Source of the DNA: a bacterium
Lineage (GTDB): Bacteria; Bacillota; Sulfobacillia; UBA995
DNA: 57,238 nucleotides
NCBI GenBank assembly: GCA_031082145.1
Contig: JAVHLP010000012.1
Span: 1 to 57,238 of the forward strand
Direction: 5' to 3'
Part shown: in pieces, positions 12,344-20,136 of the stretch
How positions within the stretch are numbered: the stretch's first letter is position 1
How the letters are laid out: every line of letters starts with the position of its first letter
Notes under the pieces: generated by a model
Told to the model about the DNA's origin: nothing
Database searches by the model: none
The model's input: the letters and a program-made list of their open reading frames with translations, nothing else
Program-made: the position numbers and the translations under genes

Positions 12344-12973
12344 TCAGCAGCTTCGAACCGCCACCGCCAGGTAGCTGTCTGCTTCGTCCTTGAGCAGGAC
12401 CGGCCCGAGGCGCTGGCTTGCCAGCAGCCGCCTCATCTCCCCGGCGGGAGGAAGCTCGTGTCCGCCGATGGCCCCTCCGATCTCCCTATGGCGGCGGTTC
12501 ACGGCCTCGCGGCTCTCGTTATGGGCTATGACCAGCCGGCCTCCCGGGCAGAGAACGCGGGCCATCTCGCCCACTGCGGCCGCTTGCCGCTGGAAGTGAG
12601 GGAAGGCGGAGTAGCACAGGACCGCGGCGAAATGACCCTCCGGAAACGGCAGGGCGTGGACGTCGGCCTGGAGGAGTTCCAGCTCGTCTCCCAGCCCCCA
12701 GGTCACGCCTTTCCGGCGGGCCAGGGCCAGCATTTGAGGAGACAGGTCCACACCGACCACCCGGCCGTGGGGCCTCACCCGATCTGCCAGCAGAGCGAGC
12801 AGGACACCGGTGCCTGTCCCCACGTCCAGGACCCTGTCTCCCGGGCACAGGCAGGCCAGGTCGACGATCGCCCGCAGCCGGTCCTCGCCAACCACCTGGT
12901 CCTGGTCCCAGTCATCGGCCAGGCGGTCAAAGAACTCCCGGATGGCCTCTTGCCCGGGGAATCCCGGTTTCAC
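12344..12973 (-). CDS. Class I SAM-dependent methyltransferase
   Basis: 209 residues of the Methyltransf_11/UbiE type. The SAM-binding motif I is VLDVGTGTGVL near 48-58, the acidic motif II residue is in VVGVDLSP, and the post-I motif is ADVHALPFPEGHFAAVLCY. The start ATG overlaps the stop of the ECF S-component gene by 4 nt, so it is translated with that operon. The acceptor substrate is unknown. Relatives that sit near cofactor transporters are often of undefined role. Confidence 0.82.
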   Translation of the reverse strand: MKPGFPGQEAIREFFDRLADDWDQDQVVGEDRLRAIVDLACLCPGDRVLDVGTGTGVLLALLADRVRPHGRVVGVDLSPQMLALARRKGVTWGLGDELELLQADVHALPFPEGHFAAVLCYSAFPHFQRQAAAVGEMARVLCPGGRLVIAHNESREAVNRRHREIGGAIGGHELPPAGEMRRLLASQRLGPVLLKDEADSYLAVAVRSC

Positions 12974-13539
12974 CTTCCCGGCACCCTGGGCGTGACCGGG
13001 CGGGCGAAGCTGCCGGTATGCTTCTGGACCAGGTACACTAGCGTGGGGACCAGGACCAGTTGGGCGCCGATGCCGGGCAACCCGGTGACCACGCCGTAGG
13101 TCAACGGGTAGAGCAACGGCACCTGGGTGAAACCGAAGAGCGGCAGGATGGCGTAGCCGATGAAGCCATAGACGAGCCGCCCGAGCACCATCGCCACCAC
13201 CAGGCAGGGCACCAGGCGAATGCGGGTGTGGTGGTAGAGGAGCCCGCTGACCGACCCGTAGGCCGCCAGTTCAAGGGCCATAGCCTGGGCCACCGGCGGC
13301 GCTAAGGGCGGCATCCCCGTCAGTACGGCGCTGGCGAGGGGCGTGACCGCACCCAGCAGCGAGCCGGTGGCGGGTCCGGCCAGAAACCCCCCGAGCAATA
13401 CGGGCAAGTGCATCGGCAGCAGGACCCTGCCCATCCCCACGGAGTGGGCAAACACGGGCAACACCAGGCCGAGGGCCAGGAGCAGGCCGGCCAGGGCCAA
13501 CCTGCGTACCACGGTGTTCGAAGGCGGCATCCGGGTCAC
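12970..13539 (-). CDS. ECF transporter S-component, substrate unknown
   Basis: 189 residues with six hydrophobic segments. The region LLPMHLPVLLGGFLAGP followed by LTGMPPLAPP is typical of energy-coupling-factor substrate-binding membrane subunits. No ATPase or EcfT gene is in the window, so it probably shares a general ECF module encoded elsewhere. Its start overlaps the CooT-like gene stop by 4 nt and its stop overlaps the methyltransferase start. With a nickel-binding CooT upstream and a structured leader RNA, a metal or a metal-containing cofactor is a reasonable guess for the cargo. That is inference only. Confidence 0.75.
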   Translation of the reverse strand: MTRMPPSNTVVRRLALAGLLLALGLVLPVFAHSVGMGRVLLPMHLPVLLGGFLAGPATGSLLGAVTPLASAVLTGMPPLAPPVAQAMALELAAYGSVSGLLYHHTRIRLVPCLVVAMVLGRLVYGFIGYAILPLFGFTQVPLLYPLTYGVVTGLPGIGAQLVLVPTLVYLVQKHTGSFARPVTPRVPGR

Positions 13540-13727
13540 ATCCTCTCCAGCAGGATCTCGTGATCGAGCAGGGCCAAGCGGCGGATGCGGGCCCGAAGGG
13601 CCTCCTGCCGGCCGTGAATGCTCACCAACCGGATTACCTCGCCGTCAACCGTCAGCCTGTCCACCGATTCCATGACCATTTCCCGCTCACCGTCTTCGCC
13701 GCAAAGGTATGCGTTGGCCTCACACAT
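13536..13727 (-). CDS. CooT-family nickel-binding protein
   Basis: 63 residues, the normal family length. It begins MCEANAYL, as CooT proteins begin MC.ANVYL, and ends with the characteristic LDHEILLERM. Cys2 is the expected nickel ligand of the CooT homodimer. In Rhodospirillum CooT helps load nickel into CO dehydrogenase. Here there is no CODH gene in view. The gene starts 4 nt after the DUF3842 stop and overlaps the ECF gene start, so the operon order is DUF3842, CooT, ECF, methyltransferase. Confidence 0.85.
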   Translation of the reverse strand: MCEANAYLCGEDGEREMVMESVDRLTVDGEVIRLVSIHGRQEALRARIRRLALLDHEILLERM

Positions 13728-13731
13728 CGCG

Positions 13732-14145
13732 TCACCCTCCGTCCGGTTCTAGTAGTTCCTGGATCAGCAGGTCAACCAGGTGGGGCAATGGTTCCCGGGG
13801 GGAGCCCACGACTCTCACCGGAAGCAGGGTGAGGGGCAGCAGGAGCTTTCTCGCCCGGCAGCTGCTGATAGCCTCGGCGGCCCGGGGCGTCAGCTCGCCC
13901 AGGAAGGAGTTGGCCACCAGTATGGACACCGTGCCGAGGACGACGTCCACCCGCCCCACGTTCTGCACAATGGCGTTCTCCCCGCTGGCTCCCTCGTTGG
14001 CGCCGGCCCGCAGCATCTGCACGGTTGCCGTGGCGTTGGTCCCCAGGGCCAAGAGCTCCGTACCCTCCGGCAAGGCATGGCGGATGGCCTCGATGATCCT
14101 GGCGCCGATGCCCCCGCCCTGGCCGTCCACAACCGCGATGCGCAT
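13732..14145 (-). CDS. DUF3842 family protein
   Basis: 137 residues from ATG 14145, chosen because GGGGGGAAACAG precedes it and the protein then begins with the clean beta strand MRIAVVDGQGGGIGARIIE. The upstream open frame is the leader RNA. The glycine-rich loop suggests a Rossmann-like nucleotide or cofactor fold. The family has no assigned function that I know of. First gene of the operon and directly controlled by the terminator-bearing leader. Confidence 0.78.
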   Translation of the reverse strand: MRIAVVDGQGGGIGARIIEAIRHALPEGTELLALGTNATATVQMLRAGANEGASGENAIVQNVGRVDVVLGTVSILVANSFLGELTPRAAEAISSCRARKLLLPLTLLPVRVVGSPREPLPHLVDLLIQELLEPDGG

Positions 14146-14160
14146 CTGTTTCCCCCCAGG

Positions 14161-14220
14161 AAAGAACAACCGCCACGAAACCCAGCCCCTGCAAGACCGG
14201 GGGCCACCTTCGTGGCGGCT
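14161..14220 (-). terminator. Intrinsic terminator in the leader of the DUF3842 operon
   Basis: On the minus strand CCGCCACGAA (14209-14218) pairs with TTCGTGGCGG (14170-14179), with a GCCCC/GGGGC stem nested in the loop. The hairpin is followed by TTGTTCTTT (14161-14169). It ends 16 nt before the DUF3842 start codon, so it would stop transcription before the operon unless an upstream RNA structure prevents folding. That is the layout of an attenuator or riboswitch expression platform. Confidence 0.7.
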
Positions 14221-14239
14221 GTCGGCTTGAAGAAACGTT

Positions 14240-14302
14240 CGGGACAAACCGGCCTCGCGGCCAACAGGCGGAGTCCCTCCGCCTTACCGACCGGTCGCCC
14301 CG
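14240..14302 (-). promoter_or_regulatory. Structured leader RNA, possible riboswitch aptamer of unidentified class
   Basis: The closing stem pairs CGGGGCGACCGG (14291-14302) with CCGGUUUGUCCCG (14240-14252) over 12 bp with one bulged U. Inside it are a 7-bp hairpin GGCGGAG/CUCCGCC (14267-14283) and a GGCC/GGCC hairpin closed by a GCGA GNRA tetraloop (14251-14262). The GNRA hairpin and the innermost two pairs of the closing stem share bases, so two states can compete. A terminator follows at once. I could not match it to a class by eye; molybdenum cofactor, tungsten cofactor and nickel/cobalt RNAs are the natural comparisons given the genes. Confidence 0.5.
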
Positions 14303-14379
14303 TCTATTCGCGTTCTCAGAGGCAAGATCCTTCACCCGGATCGAGATTGAGCAGACCACTGAAGGGAACGCGCGCCCTG

Positions 14380-15171
14380 TCAGTCCGGTGGGGAGCCGGT
14401 TCCTCGGAAATGGCGTCCGAAGATGTCTCGGGCAGCAGCGCCGAGTTCCGCCTCCAGCCGGCGAAAGGATTCCAGCAGACGGGCCCCGTCGGAAGTGAGA
14501 GCGGTTCCACCCCGGGACCGGCCTCCGGCCCGGGACTCGACCAGCTTCAGGCCCAGGCGCTCCTCGGCCTGGCGGATCCTGCCCCAGGCCTGACGGTAGG
14601 ACATGGCCATGGCCGCCGCGGCGGCGACGATTGAGCCGTGCCGGGCTATGTGCTCAAGCAGGGAGCCAAGTCCCTCTCCAAAGGCGGGCCGTCCTTCCAC
14701 CGCCAGCCAGCACTTCACCCCCAGGGAAGCGGGGACGATGGCCGGGGCCGGCGTCAGACCCGTCTCGTCGCGTAGACGCAGGCCTCTGCGGGCCAGCAGG
14801 GCGGCGGTCACACCGGCTCCCTCACCGGGGTGACAGGAGGGGCTGCCCCGCTTCAGGATCGCCTCGGCGCTGCTCATGAGCCTGGCAAGAGCGGCGACCT
14901 CCCCGGCGCCCCGCAGGAAGGATGCGGTAACATCGACACCCTGATCGTCGACAACCCGGGCCGACCCATCCAGCACGTTTTCGCCGCTAGCGGTCAGCCG
15001 CGCCGGCCGGCGGGGCGTGGGCAGCCCGCCCAGTTGCTCGGGACATACCGGCACGGCCCGGCCCTCCTCCACCAGGGCAACGACGGCCGGATGGGAACAG
15101 CAACGGCCGTCCCAGCGGCAGCGGACGCCGGCCAGGCAGGCGCTTACCAGCAGGGGAGATTGCTCGGACAT
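14380..15171 (-). CDS. DUF523 domain fused to a ModE-type winged HTH
   Basis: 263 residues from ATG 15171. Residues 1-140 are DUF523: VSACLAGVRCRWDG, VPVCPEQLGGLPTPR, and SPSC at 110-113. The loop after SPSC is shorter than usual. Residues 165-245 are a ModE/LysR-like helix-turn-helix (HGSIVAAAAAMAMSYRQAW, then EERLGLKLVESRAGG), the DNA-binding half of the molybdate regulator ModE. DUF523 thus replaces the usual TOBE ligand domain, suggesting a sensor for a thiol- or metal-linked signal. A GTG at 15210 is an alternative start. It reads toward the riboswitch-like leader and operon and could regulate them. Confidence 0.8.
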   Translation of the reverse strand: MSEQSPLLVSACLAGVRCRWDGRCCSHPAVVALVEEGRAVPVCPEQLGGLPTPRRPARLTASGENVLDGSARVVDDQGVDVTASFLRGAGEVAALARLMSSAEAILKRGSPSCHPGEGAGVTAALLARRGLRLRDETGLTPAPAIVPASLGVKCWLAVEGRPAFGEGLGSLLEHIARHGSIVAAAAAMAMSYRQAWGRIRQAEERLGLKLVESRAGGRSRGGTALTSDGARLLESFRRLEAELGAAARDIFGRHFRGTGSPPD

Positions 15172-15279
15172 ATCCTCATTATAGCATGGCCGCGCCGAGC
15201 GGCCGCTCACCCGTCAGAGATGCGCCTGTTGCGACACTTTTCTAATACATCCGGCAGGAGTCGGAGCGGGACCTGCGAA

Positions 15280-15371: not shown

Positions 15372-15647
15372 ATGAGCGCGTACCGTCGGGAATGCTGGTT
15401 GACGGCTATCTGCTTCATCCTGGTGACGGTCTTCGGCGGCATTCTGAGCGTTGTGTTCGTGCTGGGCAAGGACCTCTTCTTCGGTCCCGAACCCGTCTAC
15501 GCGGCCAAGAGCCACGTCGTGGGCCTGCCCACCCATTACGTCTTCCTACTGGTAGGCAGCTGGCTCATCGTGACCGCAGTAGGCGTATTCTACGCCTGGT
15601 ACATGGACCGTCTGGAGCGAGCGGTCGAGAGGGGTGAGGCCGGATGA
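15372..15647 (+). CDS. Small membrane subunit paired with a sodium:solute symporter
   Basis: 91 residues with two transmembrane helices at about 10-32 and 54-76, joined by a loop ending SHVVGLPTHYVFLLVGSW. This resembles the small partner proteins (DUF4212/DUF485/DUF997-like) encoded before SSS-family symporters. It overlaps the symporter start by 4 nt (ATGA), so the two are translated together. GAAAGGAGCGAGGTC precedes the ATG. Confidence 0.75.
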   Translation: MSAYRRECWLTAICFILVTVFGGILSVVFVLGKDLFFGPEPVYAAKSHVVGLPTHYVFLLVGSWLIVTAVGVFYAWYMDRLERAVERGEAG

Positions 15648-17278
15648 GCGGGCTGTTTGGCCTGGGCATCATCTTCTGCGTACTTGTGCTGGGCATCAGC
15701 GTCGCAGTGGGCGTCTGGGGCCGCCGGCTGACCCGGAACCTGGCCGACTACTACGTGGCCGGGCGATCGGTGGACGCCCTCAGCAACGGGCTGGCCATGG
15801 TGTCCCTGTCGCTCAGCCTGACGACGTTCCTCGGCCTCACAGCCCTCATCTGGTTTGGCTTTTACCTGGCCATAGCGCTCTATGCAGCCTTCACCGCCTC
15901 CTTCGTGATCATGCTGGTGGTGGCCGCCCCTTACCTGAGGCGGCACAAGACCTTCACCAGCATGGACTTCATCGGCGAGCGTTTCTACAGCCCCCGGCTG
16001 CGGATTGCGGCCGTGTTCATCATGCTGGTGGTCTCAACCCTGTACCTGATCGGCAACGTCAAGGGCATCGGCATTGTCTTTGAGCTGCTGCTGGGGATCC
16101 CCGCCATCTGGGGCGTGCTGATCGGCGGGCTGGTGGTCACCTTCTACGTCACCCTGGGCGGCATGTACGGGGTCACCTACAACCAGACCTTCCAGTCCAT
16201 CGTGCTGACGGTCGCCTTCATGGTGCCCCTGATGATGATCCTCAAGGCCCTGGGCTTCAGCGCCTGGTGGTTCCCGCCCCTGGGCTACGGGGCGGCGGTG
16301 CCAGCCATGATCCAGATGACACCCCACTACTTCTTCCCCTTTGTGGTCCATCCCGCCTGGTACATAGCGGTATTCCTGGGATCCGCCTTCGGCATCATCG
16401 GCTTGCCCCACTTCGTCATGCGCTACTTCACCGTCCGCGACGCCAAGGACGCGCGCTGGAGCACCGTGGTCTGCGTCTTCCTGGTCGGGCTGATCAACAC
16501 CTCGGCCTATGCCATGGGCTTTGCGGGGGTGTACTACGTGGCCCGGACAGGGGTTGCCATCGCCCCAGTGGATGCCGACAAGCTCGTCTTTATCCTCACC
16601 CAGGCCCTCACCAACAACTGGTGGCTGGCCTTGACCGTCGCCGGCGCCCTGGCGGCCTCGCTGTCCACGGTGGCGGGGTTGCTCATGATCATGGGAACCG
16701 GCCTGGTGCACGACTTGTACGCCGTGGTCCGCCCCGGCCTGAGCGACGACCGGAAGCTCACTTTGAGCATCTGGACGATGGCAGCGGTAGGCGTGGCGTG
16801 CACCCTCCTGTCCATCCGGCCGCCGCAGTTCATCCTGGTGACCATCATGTGGGCCTTCGGCATAGCCGGGGCCAGCCTGGGCGTACCTATAACGTTGGGC
16901 ATCTGGTGGAAGCGGGCCACCCGGGAGGGAGCGGCGGCGGCCATGATCGTTGGCTTCCTCACCAGCTTCATCCCCTACGTGATGATCGAGATCCAGAAAC
17001 TCAGCCCCATGGTCATCTCGCGCTTCTTCTACGGTCCGCTTGGCTGGGTCAAGGTGATCGCCTGGTCGGTGCCACTGTCCTTCATGGCCATGATCGTGGT
17101 CTCCTGGCTGACCAAGCCACCTCCGCTGGAAGCCCGGCAGCAGGTGGACGCCATGCACGGTTGGCCCGACTATCGCGAGGAACGTTACCAGGGCAAGGGC
17201 CTGCCGATCACGGTGATCGTCTTGTGCGCCCTGATCATGCTCTCCGTAACCACCCTGTACGGCGTGTTCCCGAAGTGA
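15644..17278 (+). CDS. Sodium:solute symporter (SSS family), carboxylate-type
   Basis: 544 residues with about 13 transmembrane segments. Family features include DYYVAGRSVDALSNGLAM near the N-terminus, GGMYGVTYNQTFQS in the middle (the sodium-binding TM5 region) and GLPHFVMRYFTVRDAKDAR, close to ActP/acetate and other monocarboxylate symporters. It is coupled to the small membrane subunit upstream. Two adenylate-forming ligase-like genes follow after a hairpin, so the cargo may be an organic acid that is activated to its CoA ester. The cargo itself is not determined. Confidence 0.85.
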   Translation: MSGLFGLGIIFCVLVLGISVAVGVWGRRLTRNLADYYVAGRSVDALSNGLAMVSLSLSLTTFLGLTALIWFGFYLAIALYAAFTASFVIMLVVAAPYLRRHKTFTSMDFIGERFYSPRLRIAAVFIMLVVSTLYLIGNVKGIGIVFELLLGIPAIWGVLIGGLVVTFYVTLGGMYGVTYNQTFQSIVLTVAFMVPLMMILKALGFSAWWFPPLGYGAAVPAMIQMTPHYFFPFVVHPAWYIAVFLGSAFGIIGLPHFVMRYFTVRDAKDARWSTVVCVFLVGLINTSAYAMGFAGVYYVARTGVAIAPVDADKLVFILTQALTNNWWLALTVAGALAASLSTVAGLLMIMGTGLVHDLYAVVRPGLSDDRKLTLSIWTMAAVGVACTLLSIRPPQFILVTIMWAFGIAGASLGVPITLGIWWKRATREGAAAAMIVGFLTSFIPYVMIEIQKLSPMVISRFFYGPLGWVKVIAWSVPLSFMAMIVVSWLTKPPPLEARQQVDAMHGWPDYREERYQGKGLPITVIVLCALIMLSVTTLYGVFPK

Positions 17279-17289
17279 CATTCCCGGGT

Positions 17290-17316
17290 GGGGGCGGGCC
17301 CCCGTTGCCCGCCCCC
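17290..17316 (+). terminator. GC hairpin between the symporter and the ligase genes
   Basis: GGGGGCGGGC (17290-17299) pairs with GCCCGCCCCC (17307-17316) around a 7-nt loop. There is no T-run after it, so it is more likely an RNA-processing or partial terminator element that changes the ratio of symporter to ligase message. Confidence 0.45.
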
Positions 17317-17335
17317 CGGCGGTGAGGTGAAGGCG

Positions 17336-18787
17336 GTGGAGGATTGGCGGGCCCTGGCCCGGATGCCGGCGGACCAGATCCGGGACCGGCAAGACCGGAA
17401 GCTACGGGCTTTCATCCGCAACCAGGTCTATCCCTGCAGCCCTTACTACCAGCGGCTCTTCAGGGAACACGGCATCGACCCCGACTCCATCCGGACGGTG
17501 GCGGACCTCGGCCGGGTTCCTTTCACCTTCAAGGAAGACGTGGCCCCCACCGATGAGGAGCCCGAACGCCACAAGGACTTCGTCGTCCGTCCGGACGATA
17601 CCGTGGCCGAGCGGTACGGCCACCTCAGCAAGCTGTCCATGTACGCCGGCAAGCACGTGGTGGCGGAGAAGATCCACGAGTACCGGCCGGTGCACATACA
17701 CTTCACGACCGGCCGCACCGCCCGGCCCACCCCTTTCGTGTACTCGGCCCGGGACCTGGGGTACATCAGGGAGGGAGGCTACCGGCTACTGGACGTCTTC
17801 GGGGTCCAGCCCGAGGACGTGGTGGTGAACGCCTTTCCCTACGCGCCCCACCTGGCTTTCTGGCAGACCTACTTCGCCGCCGAGGCCCAGGGTGCCCTGG
17901 TCCTGCACTCGGGCGGCGGCAAGATCATGGGCACCGGCAACCTCATCGAGGCGGTGGAGAGCCTGCGGGCCACGGTGCTGGTGTTCATCCCCGGCTACGC
18001 CTATTACTTCCTGCGGGAGGCCGCCCGGCAGGGCCGTGACTTCAGCCGGGTCCGGCTGGTGATCTTCGGCGGGGAGCGGGTCCCGCCGGGCCTCAAGGAC
18101 AAGGTCCGGGAGCTACTGGGCCAGATGGGCGGCGGCCAGGTCGACGTCCTGGCGACTTACGCGTGCACCGAGAGCCGCACCGCCTGGGGCGAGTGCCCGG
18201 CCGAGAGCTCTTTTGGCTACCACACCTACCCGGACCTGGAGGTCATCGAGGTAGTGGATCCGGCCACCGGCAAGCAGGTAGGCGAGGGTGAGGAGGGCGA
18301 GGTCGTCTACACCGCCCTGGGCTGGCGGGGCACATGCGTCCTGCGCTACCGGACGGGAGACATCGCCGCCGGCGGCATGACTACCGAGCCCTGCCCCAAC
18401 TGCGGCCGCACGGTGCCCCGGATCAGCGCCAACATCCAGCGCAAGTCGGAGTTCCGGGAGTTCGCCCTCACCAAGATCAAGGGCACTCTAGTCAACCTCA
18501 ACAACTTCTTCCCGCTGCTCATGGGCCACCCGGACCTGCTGGAGTGGCAGGTCGAGCTGCGCAAGCGGAACGACGATGCCTACGACCTGGATGAGATCTA
18601 TTTGCGGGTGGTGCCTGCCCCGGGAGTGGACCCGGGGCGCCTGGAGGCCGACCTCCAGGAGAAGGTCTTGCGGGAGACGGAGGTTGCCCCCACCGGCATC
18701 ATCCTGACCACCATGGAGGATATCCTGGGCCGCCTGGGTATGGAGACTGAGCTGAAGGAGAAGCGGATCGTGGACAATCGTCCGTGA
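17336..18787 (+). CDS. PaaK-like adenylate-forming protein, first copy
   Basis: 483 residues, phenylacetate-CoA ligase family. The start GTG 17336 follows GAGGTGAAG; the tool frame upstream runs through the hairpin. Early PaaK features are present (YPCSPYYQRLFREHGI and LGRVPFTFKED). The phosphate-binding loop, normally SSGTTGKPT, reads HFTTGRTARPTPF, and the usual glycine-rich lysine is lost. YRTGD at the ATP ribose site is kept and is followed by CPNCGRTVPRI. It may activate an unusual acid, or have a non-ligase role. It overlaps the stop-start of the second copy. Confidence 0.78.
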   Translation: MEDWRALARMPADQIRDRQDRKLRAFIRNQVYPCSPYYQRLFREHGIDPDSIRTVADLGRVPFTFKEDVAPTDEEPERHKDFVVRPDDTVAERYGHLSKLSMYAGKHVVAEKIHEYRPVHIHFTTGRTARPTPFVYSARDLGYIREGGYRLLDVFGVQPEDVVVNAFPYAPHLAFWQTYFAAEAQGALVLHSGGGKIMGTGNLIEAVESLRATVLVFIPGYAYYFLREAARQGRDFSRVRLVIFGGERVPPGLKDKVRELLGQMGGGQVDVLATYACTESRTAWGECPAESSFGYHTYPDLEVIEVVDPATGKQVGEGEEGEVVYTALGWRGTCVLRYRTGDIAAGGMTTEPCPNCGRTVPRISANIQRKSEFREFALTKIKGTLVNLNNFFPLLMGHPDLLEWQVELRKRNDDAYDLDEIYLRVVPAPGVDPGRLEADLQEKVLRETEVAPTGIILTTMEDILGRLGMETELKEKRIVDNRP

Positions 18788-18813
18788 CCGGGCGACCGAG
18801 GGGAGGAACCCCA

Positions 18814-20136
18814 GTGCTCGACTACGCTCGTCTGGGCCGGATGGCCGGAACCGAGATCCAGGCCCTGCAGGACCGGACCCTGGCCCGGGCCATCACCGAT
18901 CGGGTCTACCCCTGCCACCGCTACTACCGGCGGCTGATGGAAGAAGCGGGACTTGGGCCGGCCGACCTCGCCGGCATCGCCGGCCTGGCCCGCCTACCGT
19001 TCACCGATCGCCTGGTGATCAAGCAGGAGGGCGATCCGCGGGCGTTTGTCCTTGACCTGCCGCCGGAGACACCGCCGGCCCGGCGAGGTCTCTTCGGGCT
19101 CGGCGGCCGCGAGCCCCGGGCCCCCTCGGTCGACCCCTCCCGCCCTCTCCGGGCCATGTTCGCCGGGGGCCGGACCACTCCCCTGACCCCCATCTTCTAT
19201 GCCCAGCAGGATCTCGACCACCTGGTGGAAGCGGGCCGCCGGGTGTTCCAGGTGGCCGGCGTGGACACCGGGCAGCCCCTGGTCAACGCCATTCCCTATG
19301 GTCCCGGCCTGCCCTTCTGGCAGATCGCCGCCGCCACCCTGGACCAGGGCGTCACCGCCGTGCAGACCGGCGGGCCACGGGTCATGGACGTCGAGAAGAC
19401 CCTGTCCGCCCTGGTGAACCTGAAGGCGGCCACCCTGGCCGGTTTCCCCGGCTTTCTGGCCCACCTCCTGCGGGTGGGCGCCGGGGAGGGAATAAGGCTG
19501 GAGCGGCTCCAGCGGGTGCTGGTGACCGGCGAGCCCCTCACCGAGGGATTCCGCGAACACTTGCGGCGGCTCCTGGCCGAGGTGGGTTCGGCGGCCGAGG
19601 TACTCGGCCTCTACCTCAACACCGAGGCCAAGACCGGCTGGGCCGAGTGCGCTCCCGGCACCGGCTTTCACACCAACCCGGACCTGGAGTTCCTCGAGAT
19701 CATTGACCCTGACGAGGGAGAACGGCTGGGCCCCGGCGAGACGGGTGAACTGGTGATCACCCACCTCGACGCCAGGGGCACCTTCCTGCTCCGGTACCGA
19801 ACGGGGGATGTGGTGGAAGGCGGGTTGACGGTAGAGCCGTGCCCGGCCTGCGGCCGGACTGTTCCCCGGCTGGGCAGCTTGGTCTACCCGGCCGCCGAGG
19901 CTCCCCTGGTCCCGCTCAGGAAGTGCCTGGATGAATCCCCCGCCGTCACGCTCTGGCAACTCGCGGTGAGCGGCGGCGAAGTGGCTCTGGCCGTCTCCCC
20001 CGCCGGGATCGATCCGGCCGGCCTCCCGCCCGCCATCGCGGGTCTCCGCCGGGTGGAGGCGTTGCCTGAGTCGGAACTACACCGGCGCCTGGGCACCGAT
20101 CGCGAGCCCCGGGAAGCCCGGATAGTACTTGCCTGA
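18814..20136 (+). CDS. PaaK-like adenylate-forming protein, second copy, more degenerate
   Basis: 440 residues. Start GTG 18814 is chosen for the AGGGGAGGAA site just before it, giving a 26-nt gap from the first copy. It is a clear paralogue: the same YPCHRYYRRLMEEAGL start, LPFWQIAAATLDQG centre, YRTGDV motif and CPACGRTVPRLG after it. The phosphate loop reads FAGGRTTPLTPI and is further from consensus. The C-terminal domain is shortened and lacks an obvious catalytic lysine region. The pair could form a heteromer in which one copy is catalytic. Confidence 0.75.
   Translation: MLDYARLGRMAGTEIQALQDRTLARAITDRVYPCHRYYRRLMEEAGLGPADLAGIAGLARLPFTDRLVIKQEGDPRAFVLDLPPETPPARRGLFGLGGREPRAPSVDPSRPLRAMFAGGRTTPLTPIFYAQQDLDHLVEAGRRVFQVAGVDTGQPLVNAIPYGPGLPFWQIAAATLDQGVTAVQTGGPRVMDVEKTLSALVNLKAATLAGFPGFLAHLLRVGAGEGIRLERLQRVLVTGEPLTEGFREHLRRLLAEVGSAAEVLGLYLNTEAKTGWAECAPGTGFHTNPDLEFLEIIDPDEGERLGPGETGELVITHLDARGTFLLRYRTGDVVEGGLTVEPCPACGRTVPRLGSLVYPAAEAPLVPLRKCLDESPAVTLWQLAVSGGEVALAVSPAGIDPAGLPPAIAGLRRVEALPESELHRRLGTDREPREARIVLA

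Follow-up and report, generated by a model that had tools for sequence, protein, structure and literature searches.

A candidate family of transcription attenuators upstream of nickel acquisition genes in anaerobic Bacillota and Desulfobacterota

We describe an RNA element of about 60 nt, found in Bacillota and Desulfobacterota, of which one copy occupies positions 14161-14223 on the minus strand of the window, the 57,238-nt stretch of bacterial DNA analysed here. On balance, we judge it probable that this copy represents an uncatalogued family of cis-regulatory RNAs and works as a transcription attenuator, off by default, of genes for nickel (nickel/cobalt) acquisition and maturation. The element family is new to Rfam 15 and to the open-access literature searched (subscription papers lay outside the search), in which a description of the element was not found. 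In the window, Rfam 15 gave no gathering-level match over the element, and none up to E 10 in positions 14050-14480. Rfam comparisons of element-bearing loci (nine at E up to 10 and 40 more at gathering level) likewise found no family at the element; riboswitch matches above the gathering score in those loci were confined to cobalamin riboswitches at other positions. Known Rfam classes (NiCo, Moco, Moco-II and all other Rfam 15 riboswitches) were rejected, as none matches over the element. An initial annotation, made from the sequence alone, had been unable to match a class to the leader by eye, and Rfam 15 assigns none either.

Results

Gene order and leader structure in the window

The element and its leader lie on the minus strand between a gene (14380-15210, minus strand, directly upstream) encoding a 2-thiouracil desulfurase/DUF523 domain fused to a LysR/ModE-type HTH and a gene (13732-14145, minus strand) encoding a DUF3842 protein (PF12953, Pfam E 1.7e-50), the first gene under the element. 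Further along the minus strand are genes for CooT, the Ni(II)-binding accessory protein of CO dehydrogenase (13536-13727), the substrate-binding component of an ECF transporter (12970-13539; Pfam ECF_trnsprt), a SAM-dependent methyltransferase (12344-12973; Pfam) and a metallo-beta-lactamase fold protein. The spacer between the element and the operon (14143-14160, minus strand) contains the Shine-Dalgarno-like sequence GGGGGGAAAC and the DUF3842 ATG (14145-14143). The DUF523-HTH protein is a possible second, DNA-level regulator of the locus; in another locus (L169), a short ORF resembling a ModE-type HTH lies behind DUF3842. Divergent from the nickel locus, on the plus strand at 15372-20136, run genes for a DUF4212-like small protein and a sodium:solute symporter, then two consecutive AMP-ligase-type ORFs, the first with an AMP-binding match in Pfam and the second alike by eye. 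In the plasmid collection searched, similar DNA was not found.

The initial annotation had described a 12-bp closing stem, a 7-bp hairpin and a GNRA hairpin overlapping the closing stem, with an intrinsic terminator ahead of the operon. All three stems are present, on the minus strand. The whole 142-nt leader folds at -79.8 kcal/mol, compared with -62.7 +/- 4.1 kcal/mol in shuffles (z -4.16, 0/200), and has two parts, domain A (14302-14240) and the terminator hairpin (14224-14161). Domain A consists of the long closing stem, a GGCGGAG/CUCCGCC hairpin and a GGCC-GCGA-GGCC hairpin that shares bases with the closing stem. It is a real fold (z -3.15 on its own, with 1/200 shuffles equally good), yet it is unconserved: blastn at E <= 0.1 against all other fetched loci gave zero matches, and the regions upstream of the elements of seven near relatives contain nothing like it and fold differently. 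Domain A was therefore rejected as an aptamer and left out of the element. Among the loci compared, this stable, GC-rich three-stem structure is confined to the window.

The terminator hairpin also folds better than shuffles (z -6.10, 0/200 as good) and combines a stable stem with a U-run, as expected of an intrinsic terminator. Its U-rich tail, GUUGUUCUUU (14161-14170, minus strand), stops 15 nt short of the ATG at 14145. The 3' columns of the family are T-rich, and the tail of the window copy is an imperfect U-run. A simple terminator scan of the window did not detect this terminator, probably because the tail is interrupted (UUGUUCUUU). Homologous DUF3842 operons carry the terminator together with its alternative hairpin, described below, but not the upstream three-stem structure. 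The attenuator-type architecture proposed at the outset is thus retained, whereas the notion of the three-stem domain plus terminator as one riboswitch is not, since only the terminator hairpin recurs in other genomes.

A hairpin family with two alternative pairings

We gathered DUF3842 loci, 80 from named genomes and ten from relatives of the genome that holds the window. When we read their upstream regions and listed their terminators, the hairpin CCAYGRAGGY-(inner hairpin)-CUUCRUGG-UUUU recurred ahead of DUF3842, both in Bacillota and in Desulfobacterota (L018, L020 and L027). A model of 20 copies (R1) has matches ahead of DUF3842 and at more distant positions in these loci, where they precede other genes. 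R1 matches (E <= 0.01) are present in 29 of the 38 genomes that hold DUF3842 loci, at one to 14 per genome. A second model (R2) was made from 97 copies with the window excluded. It gives a single match in the 57-kb window, at 14162-14222 on the minus strand (29.8 bits, E 3.4e-5), the position also matched by R1; this score is below that of most seeds. The family alignment (A2) holds 150 matches, or 140 distinct copies once opposite-strand duplicates are removed. About eight rows of A2 duplicate a site through its weaker match on the opposite strand; these are included in the 147-row covariation counts given below and removed from the 140-copy counts.

The element comprises three helices, H1, T and H2. 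The 5' strand, with the consensus R-CC-AYGRA-GG-Y, forms a small local hairpin, H1, with an AYGRA loop and up to three extra pairs (3-6 bp in most copies). Alternatively, this 5' strand can pair with a distal partner that leads into U's, which makes the intrinsic terminator T. Because the 5' strand is common to both, H1 and T are mutually exclusive. In the window, H1 (GCCGCC-ACGAA-GGUGGC, 14203-14219, minus strand; -10.7 kcal/mol folded in isolation) consists of a 5' strand at 14219-14214, an AYGRA-type loop at 14213-14209 and a 3' strand at 14208-14203, and is the proposed recognition or antiterminator hairpin. In the terminator helix T (14165-14223, minus strand), positions 14223-14208 pair with 14180-14165. 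The inner hairpin H2 (14183-14206, minus strand), in which 14206-14200 pair with 14189-14183, is retained inside the terminator.

Judged from the alignment, the two exclusive pairings are both kept by compensatory changes. Over 147 distinct rows, 82.8% of H1 cells are paired and 123 are double-change cells, compared with 60.8 +/- 12.2 after shuffling (0/500); when the H1 partner is slid by one to three columns the signal is lost (3-46 double-change cells). For T and H2 together, 87.5% of cells are paired and 380 show double changes, compared with 115 +/- 16 after shuffling (0/500) and 59-121 after sliding. H2 is 85% paired family-wide, with changes on both sides. The H1 signal was not built in by the search, since H1 was absent from R1. 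The T form is the more stable in 139 of the 140 copies, by a median of 11.7 kcal/mol; for the window copy the energies are -38.8 kcal/mol (T form) and -22.5 kcal/mol (H1 form). Given the covariation on the shared strand and these energies, the element resembles PyrR- and LicT-like systems in having a small hairpin that is mutually exclusive with an intrinsic terminator.

The same features bear on whether the conserved unit is RNA or DNA. The palindrome CCAYGAAG...CTTCRTGG could be an operator bound as DNA by a metalloregulator; the arms are inverted repeats of one another, and weak matches to both strands are seen for some copies. We regard this as the least probable of the readings weighed here, because the distance between the arms depends on the inner hairpin, the U-run invariably lies 3', conservation is stronger in the 5' arm than in the 3' arm, and in H1, which covaries, the 5' arm is paired with GG.

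The loop A-Y-G-R-A is kept in 140/140 copies, despite a non-complementary T partner of the last loop A in 33 of 139. At the level of sequence comparison, this suggests that the loop itself is what is recognised; a caution is that conservation of the core is partly by construction, because the copies were found with a model trained on that core. H2 often ends in an NGAA/NGNA tetraloop (AGAA is commonest), like the YGRA part of the H1 loop. A dimeric protein might use this tetraloop as a second site of recognition. Promoter-like sites occur upstream of 34/140 elements, compared with 16/140 in one shuffle, a signal too weak to use. By eye, L020 and L027 have a TTGACA/TATA-type promoter so near that the RNA would start at the element.

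Genes downstream of the element

For a survey of downstream genes, 96 copies were fetched with their surroundings. In 80 of these, an ORF of 60 aa or more starts on the same strand within 450 nt, at a median distance of 36 nt. We scanned 65 of 69 downstream genes with Pfam, four having been dropped as doubtful or duplicate ORFs, and found the set to be led by uptake and maturation genes. The matches include CbiM (6), DUF3842 (6), CobN (5), CbiQ (4), FmdE (4), HD domains (4), Peripla_BP_2 (3), TonB plug (3), ZnuA (2), FlpD (2), TrmO (2) and methyltransferases (2), as well as parts of nickel/dipeptide-type ABC transporters. Ten chosen proteins were compared with NCBIfam, where the best matches included nikA, nikB, CobN, a cobaltochelatase-like ChlI/D protein and a hydrogenase maturation protease; two of the ten, the L223 protein and the ECF protein of the window, had no NCBIfam match. 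In L192 and L230 the gene immediately behind the element is cooT, and in L145 a relative of CooC (PDB 3kje, E 7.7e-15) is encoded 576 nt behind an element copy.

Homologues of the window ECF protein are encoded directly behind the element in L095 (47% identity by BLASTP) and L233 (38%). In L233 (292-1444, minus strand), the ECF component is followed by a methyltransferase with 32% identity (BLASTP) to that of the window. Such an ECF-methyltransferase pair could make or modify a nickel chelator that the transporter imports. Methyltransferases are also found behind the element in L139, L186, L210 and L227. In several genomes, CobN-like and ChlI/D-like chelatase subunits are under the element, for example in L135 (1-2547, minus strand) and L155 (5669-7684, minus strand). 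These subunits are candidates for a nickel chelatase acting on some tetrapyrrole, or for a cobalt chelatase.

Two loci, L149 (374-964, plus strand) and L208 (1559-976, minus strand), have the order element, cobalamin riboswitch, cbiM-like gene. This two-switch leader may combine a nickel/cobalt signal with B12. The combined downstream gene set thus indicates nickel, with cobalt possible, and cobalt is kept as a possible signal because the L149 and L208 copies precede a cobalamin riboswitch and cbiM. The metal signal originally read from CooT and the ECF importer is backed by this nickel/cobalt regulon. A molybdate, tungstate or pterin signal, which the ModE-like neighbour had brought to mind, is not favoured, because the regulon is one of nickel/cobalt.

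Distribution and candidate binding proteins

Among 398 genomes of the phylum, 110 have the element, 179 have DUF3842 and 105 have both, compared with 49.5 expected (p 3.6e-40, kinship ignored); the R1 scans of more than 40 genomes used stricter filters and missed weak copies. In a further set of 80 genomes, 74 of them DUF3842-positive members of the phylum missed by R1, R2 gave matches (E <= 0.01) in 34. DUF3842 is below cut-off or absent in five of the 110 element genomes; among these exceptions, G193 and G367 seem firm and the match in G283 could be fortuitous. G193 has four element matches and neither DUF3842 nor CooT. In the window's class, the element is present in nine of 154 genomes, eight of them with DUF3842, which is over cut-off in 10/154. 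The ninth, G035, has the element and no DUF3842. Its copy is likely bin contamination or a very recent transfer, because the contig end (L099, G035:C294) is 99.94% identical over 1760 bp to L187 (G189:C122), which supposedly belongs to a different species.

This distribution is hard to reconcile with an ordinary constitutive terminator or processing hairpin that does no switching, such as the terminator of the DUF523-HTH gene. That gene and DUF3842 do share a strand, and the hairpin is a strong terminator. Terminators abound everywhere, however, yet only 5 of 219 DUF3842-negative phylum genomes give element matches; the same sequence-specific hairpin stands before one functional gene set in many genomes, close to the next ORF, and H1 covaries independently of T. 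We thus consider this explanation very improbable.

The nickel repressor NikR shows the opposite tendency. NikR was counted as present at E < 1e-20, which gives 51 of the 398 genomes (66 pass the Pfam cut-off, the remainder being short, weak matches). Its overlap with the element is five genomes, compared with 14.1 expected (p 0.0014, kinship ignored), and its overlap with DUF3842 is seven compared with 22.9 expected (398 genomes, kinship again ignored).

One explanation of the co-occurrence with DUF3842 is that an operon-encoded protein, CooT or DUF3842, is itself an RNA-binding sensor, the apo-protein binding the AYGRA hairpin and blocking termination and the Ni-bound form releasing it. Besides the presence of DUF3842 in 105 of 110 element genomes, the position of cooT directly behind the element in two loci speaks for it. 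The CooT of the window is a genuine CooT by sequence (Pfam E 2.2e-20; PDB 6fan, E 3.9e-10) and by fold, its model matching 6fan and 5n76. Met1 and Cys2 are present in 53/53 aligned CooT sequences, the homologues collected being only those that bear Cys2. Timm (2017) reportedly described an RNA-binding-like (Sm-like) fold for CooT, which would suit such a role. In our fold comparison, CooT chains came first, followed by F1-ATPase epsilon subunits (Z about 5) and RimM domains (Z under 4), with no Sm/Hfq or CsrA chains seen among the matches listed; the model thus matched CooT structures, but its other matches were weak. CooT is dimeric, and each dimer takes up a single Ni with a Kd of 9 nM (PMC6006190).

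Against this explanation, CooT was found in 62 of the 80 element genomes tested and is absent from the other 18, and in the window's class it occurs in 5 of 9; CooT was accordingly rejected as a universal binder. DUF3842, given its five exceptions among 110 element genomes, was rejected as a strictly required binder. The DUF3842 model is Rossmann-like (AlphaFold2, pLDDT 94), and a search of PDB folds gave generic Rossmann-like matches only, with no convincing relative. Overall, we find it unlikely that either protein is the sensor in this form.

The lack of a universal protein raises the alternative of a direct nickel (nickel/cobalt) riboswitch, in which the RNA would bind Ni2+/Co2+ or a nickel-containing metabolite and shift the H1/T balance with no protein. 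Direct metal sensing by the RNA is kept as a candidate because no tested protein family occurs in all element genomes, with G193 lacking both DUF3842 and CooT. In addition, eight tandem pairs among the 96 fetched copies and the two leaders that join the element to a cobalamin riboswitch look like tandem riboswitches. However, conservation of the core extends over only about 12 nt, within a 3-6-bp hairpin. A ligand that stabilised H1 would turn the genes ON, the wrong sense for uptake genes, and an OFF switch would need to act by stabilising T, the form that 139/140 copies already prefer. We therefore rate a protein-free riboswitch as a rather doubtful alternative, though one to be taken more seriously than those discussed above.

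Discussion

In the attenuator reading that we prefer, RNA polymerase would by default, when no signal is present, stop at T. When nickel is scarce, a factor recognising the AYGRA hairpin would hold H1; this factor would most likely be a protein, as in PyrR- and LicT-type systems. With H1 held, T could not form and DUF3842-cooT-ECF would be transcribed. That the switch would be ON when metal is low is inferred from the uptake genes: the activating factor should act at low nickel because the regulated genes import nickel. Action at low nickel means that an apo-protein antiterminator fits better than a metal-bound RNA. Since H1 alone is small, its stabilisation would need a strong binder.

More broadly, the element may represent RNA-level control of nickel uptake that is the first of its sort, a widespread attenuator class that stands in for NikR in many anaerobic Bacillota and Desulfobacterota. 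Such a class would have a nickel sensor of its own, possibly DUF3842 or CooT acting as a metal-dependent RNA-binding antiterminator. We hold the case for this wider proposal to be evenly poised. The element is a candidate RNA switch common to nikABC, cbiMQ, cooT, DUF3842, CobN-like and hydrogenase maturation genes. Through it, DUF3842, FmdE proteins, CobN-like chelatases to which no product is assigned and the window's ECF-methyltransferase pair fall into a single probable nickel regulon. The element may explain how nickel uptake is controlled in microbes without the usual nickel repressor, and offers a testable candidate for NikR-independent nickel control in acetogens, sulfate reducers and related anaerobes.

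Several known systems resemble the element in part. In the PyrR attenuators of pyr operons, a small CC-loop-GG hairpin competes with an intrinsic terminator, and there are several copies per regulon. The element likewise has a CC-loop-GG-type hairpin set against a terminator and multiple copies per regulon, but the regulon is another one, the PyrR loop is NGNGA where that of the element is AYGRA, and the PyrR hairpin favours termination whereas H1 would oppose it. In LicT/SacY-type antitermination, a protein holds a hairpin that overlaps the 5' side of the terminator, which results in read-through. The overlap with the 5' side of the terminator is shared by the element; in contrast, the RAT sequence, the genes and the PRD proteins of those systems were not seen at the element, and nickel genes take the place of sugar genes.

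The aptamer of the NiCo (czcD) riboswitch is a four-way junction, unlike the one or two simple hairpins of the element. The NiCo riboswitch is alike in being RNA-level control tied to nickel/cobalt, and it switches on exporters at high metal (PMC7266159), whereas uptake genes are under the element, which has no match to it in Rfam. The loop of the element resembles the AYGGA(Y)-like hairpin loops of TwoAYGGAY RNA, for which CsrA binding has been proposed (PMC4333381). The element has a terminator, whereas none is described for TwoAYGGAY in the portion of that paper seen, and it has no Rfam match to this family. A canonical CsrA target was rejected, as the loop contains GGA (G at the R position) in 30/140 copies and GAA in 110/140.

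The likely functional counterpart of the element is NikR, which also controls nickel uptake genes. NikR is, however, a DNA-binding, nickel-dependent repressor protein, and it coexists with the element less often than expected in the genomes compared above. Zhang et al. (2009) found NikR in fewer than half of the organisms with NikABCDE, from which NikR-independent control was inferred (PMC2667541).
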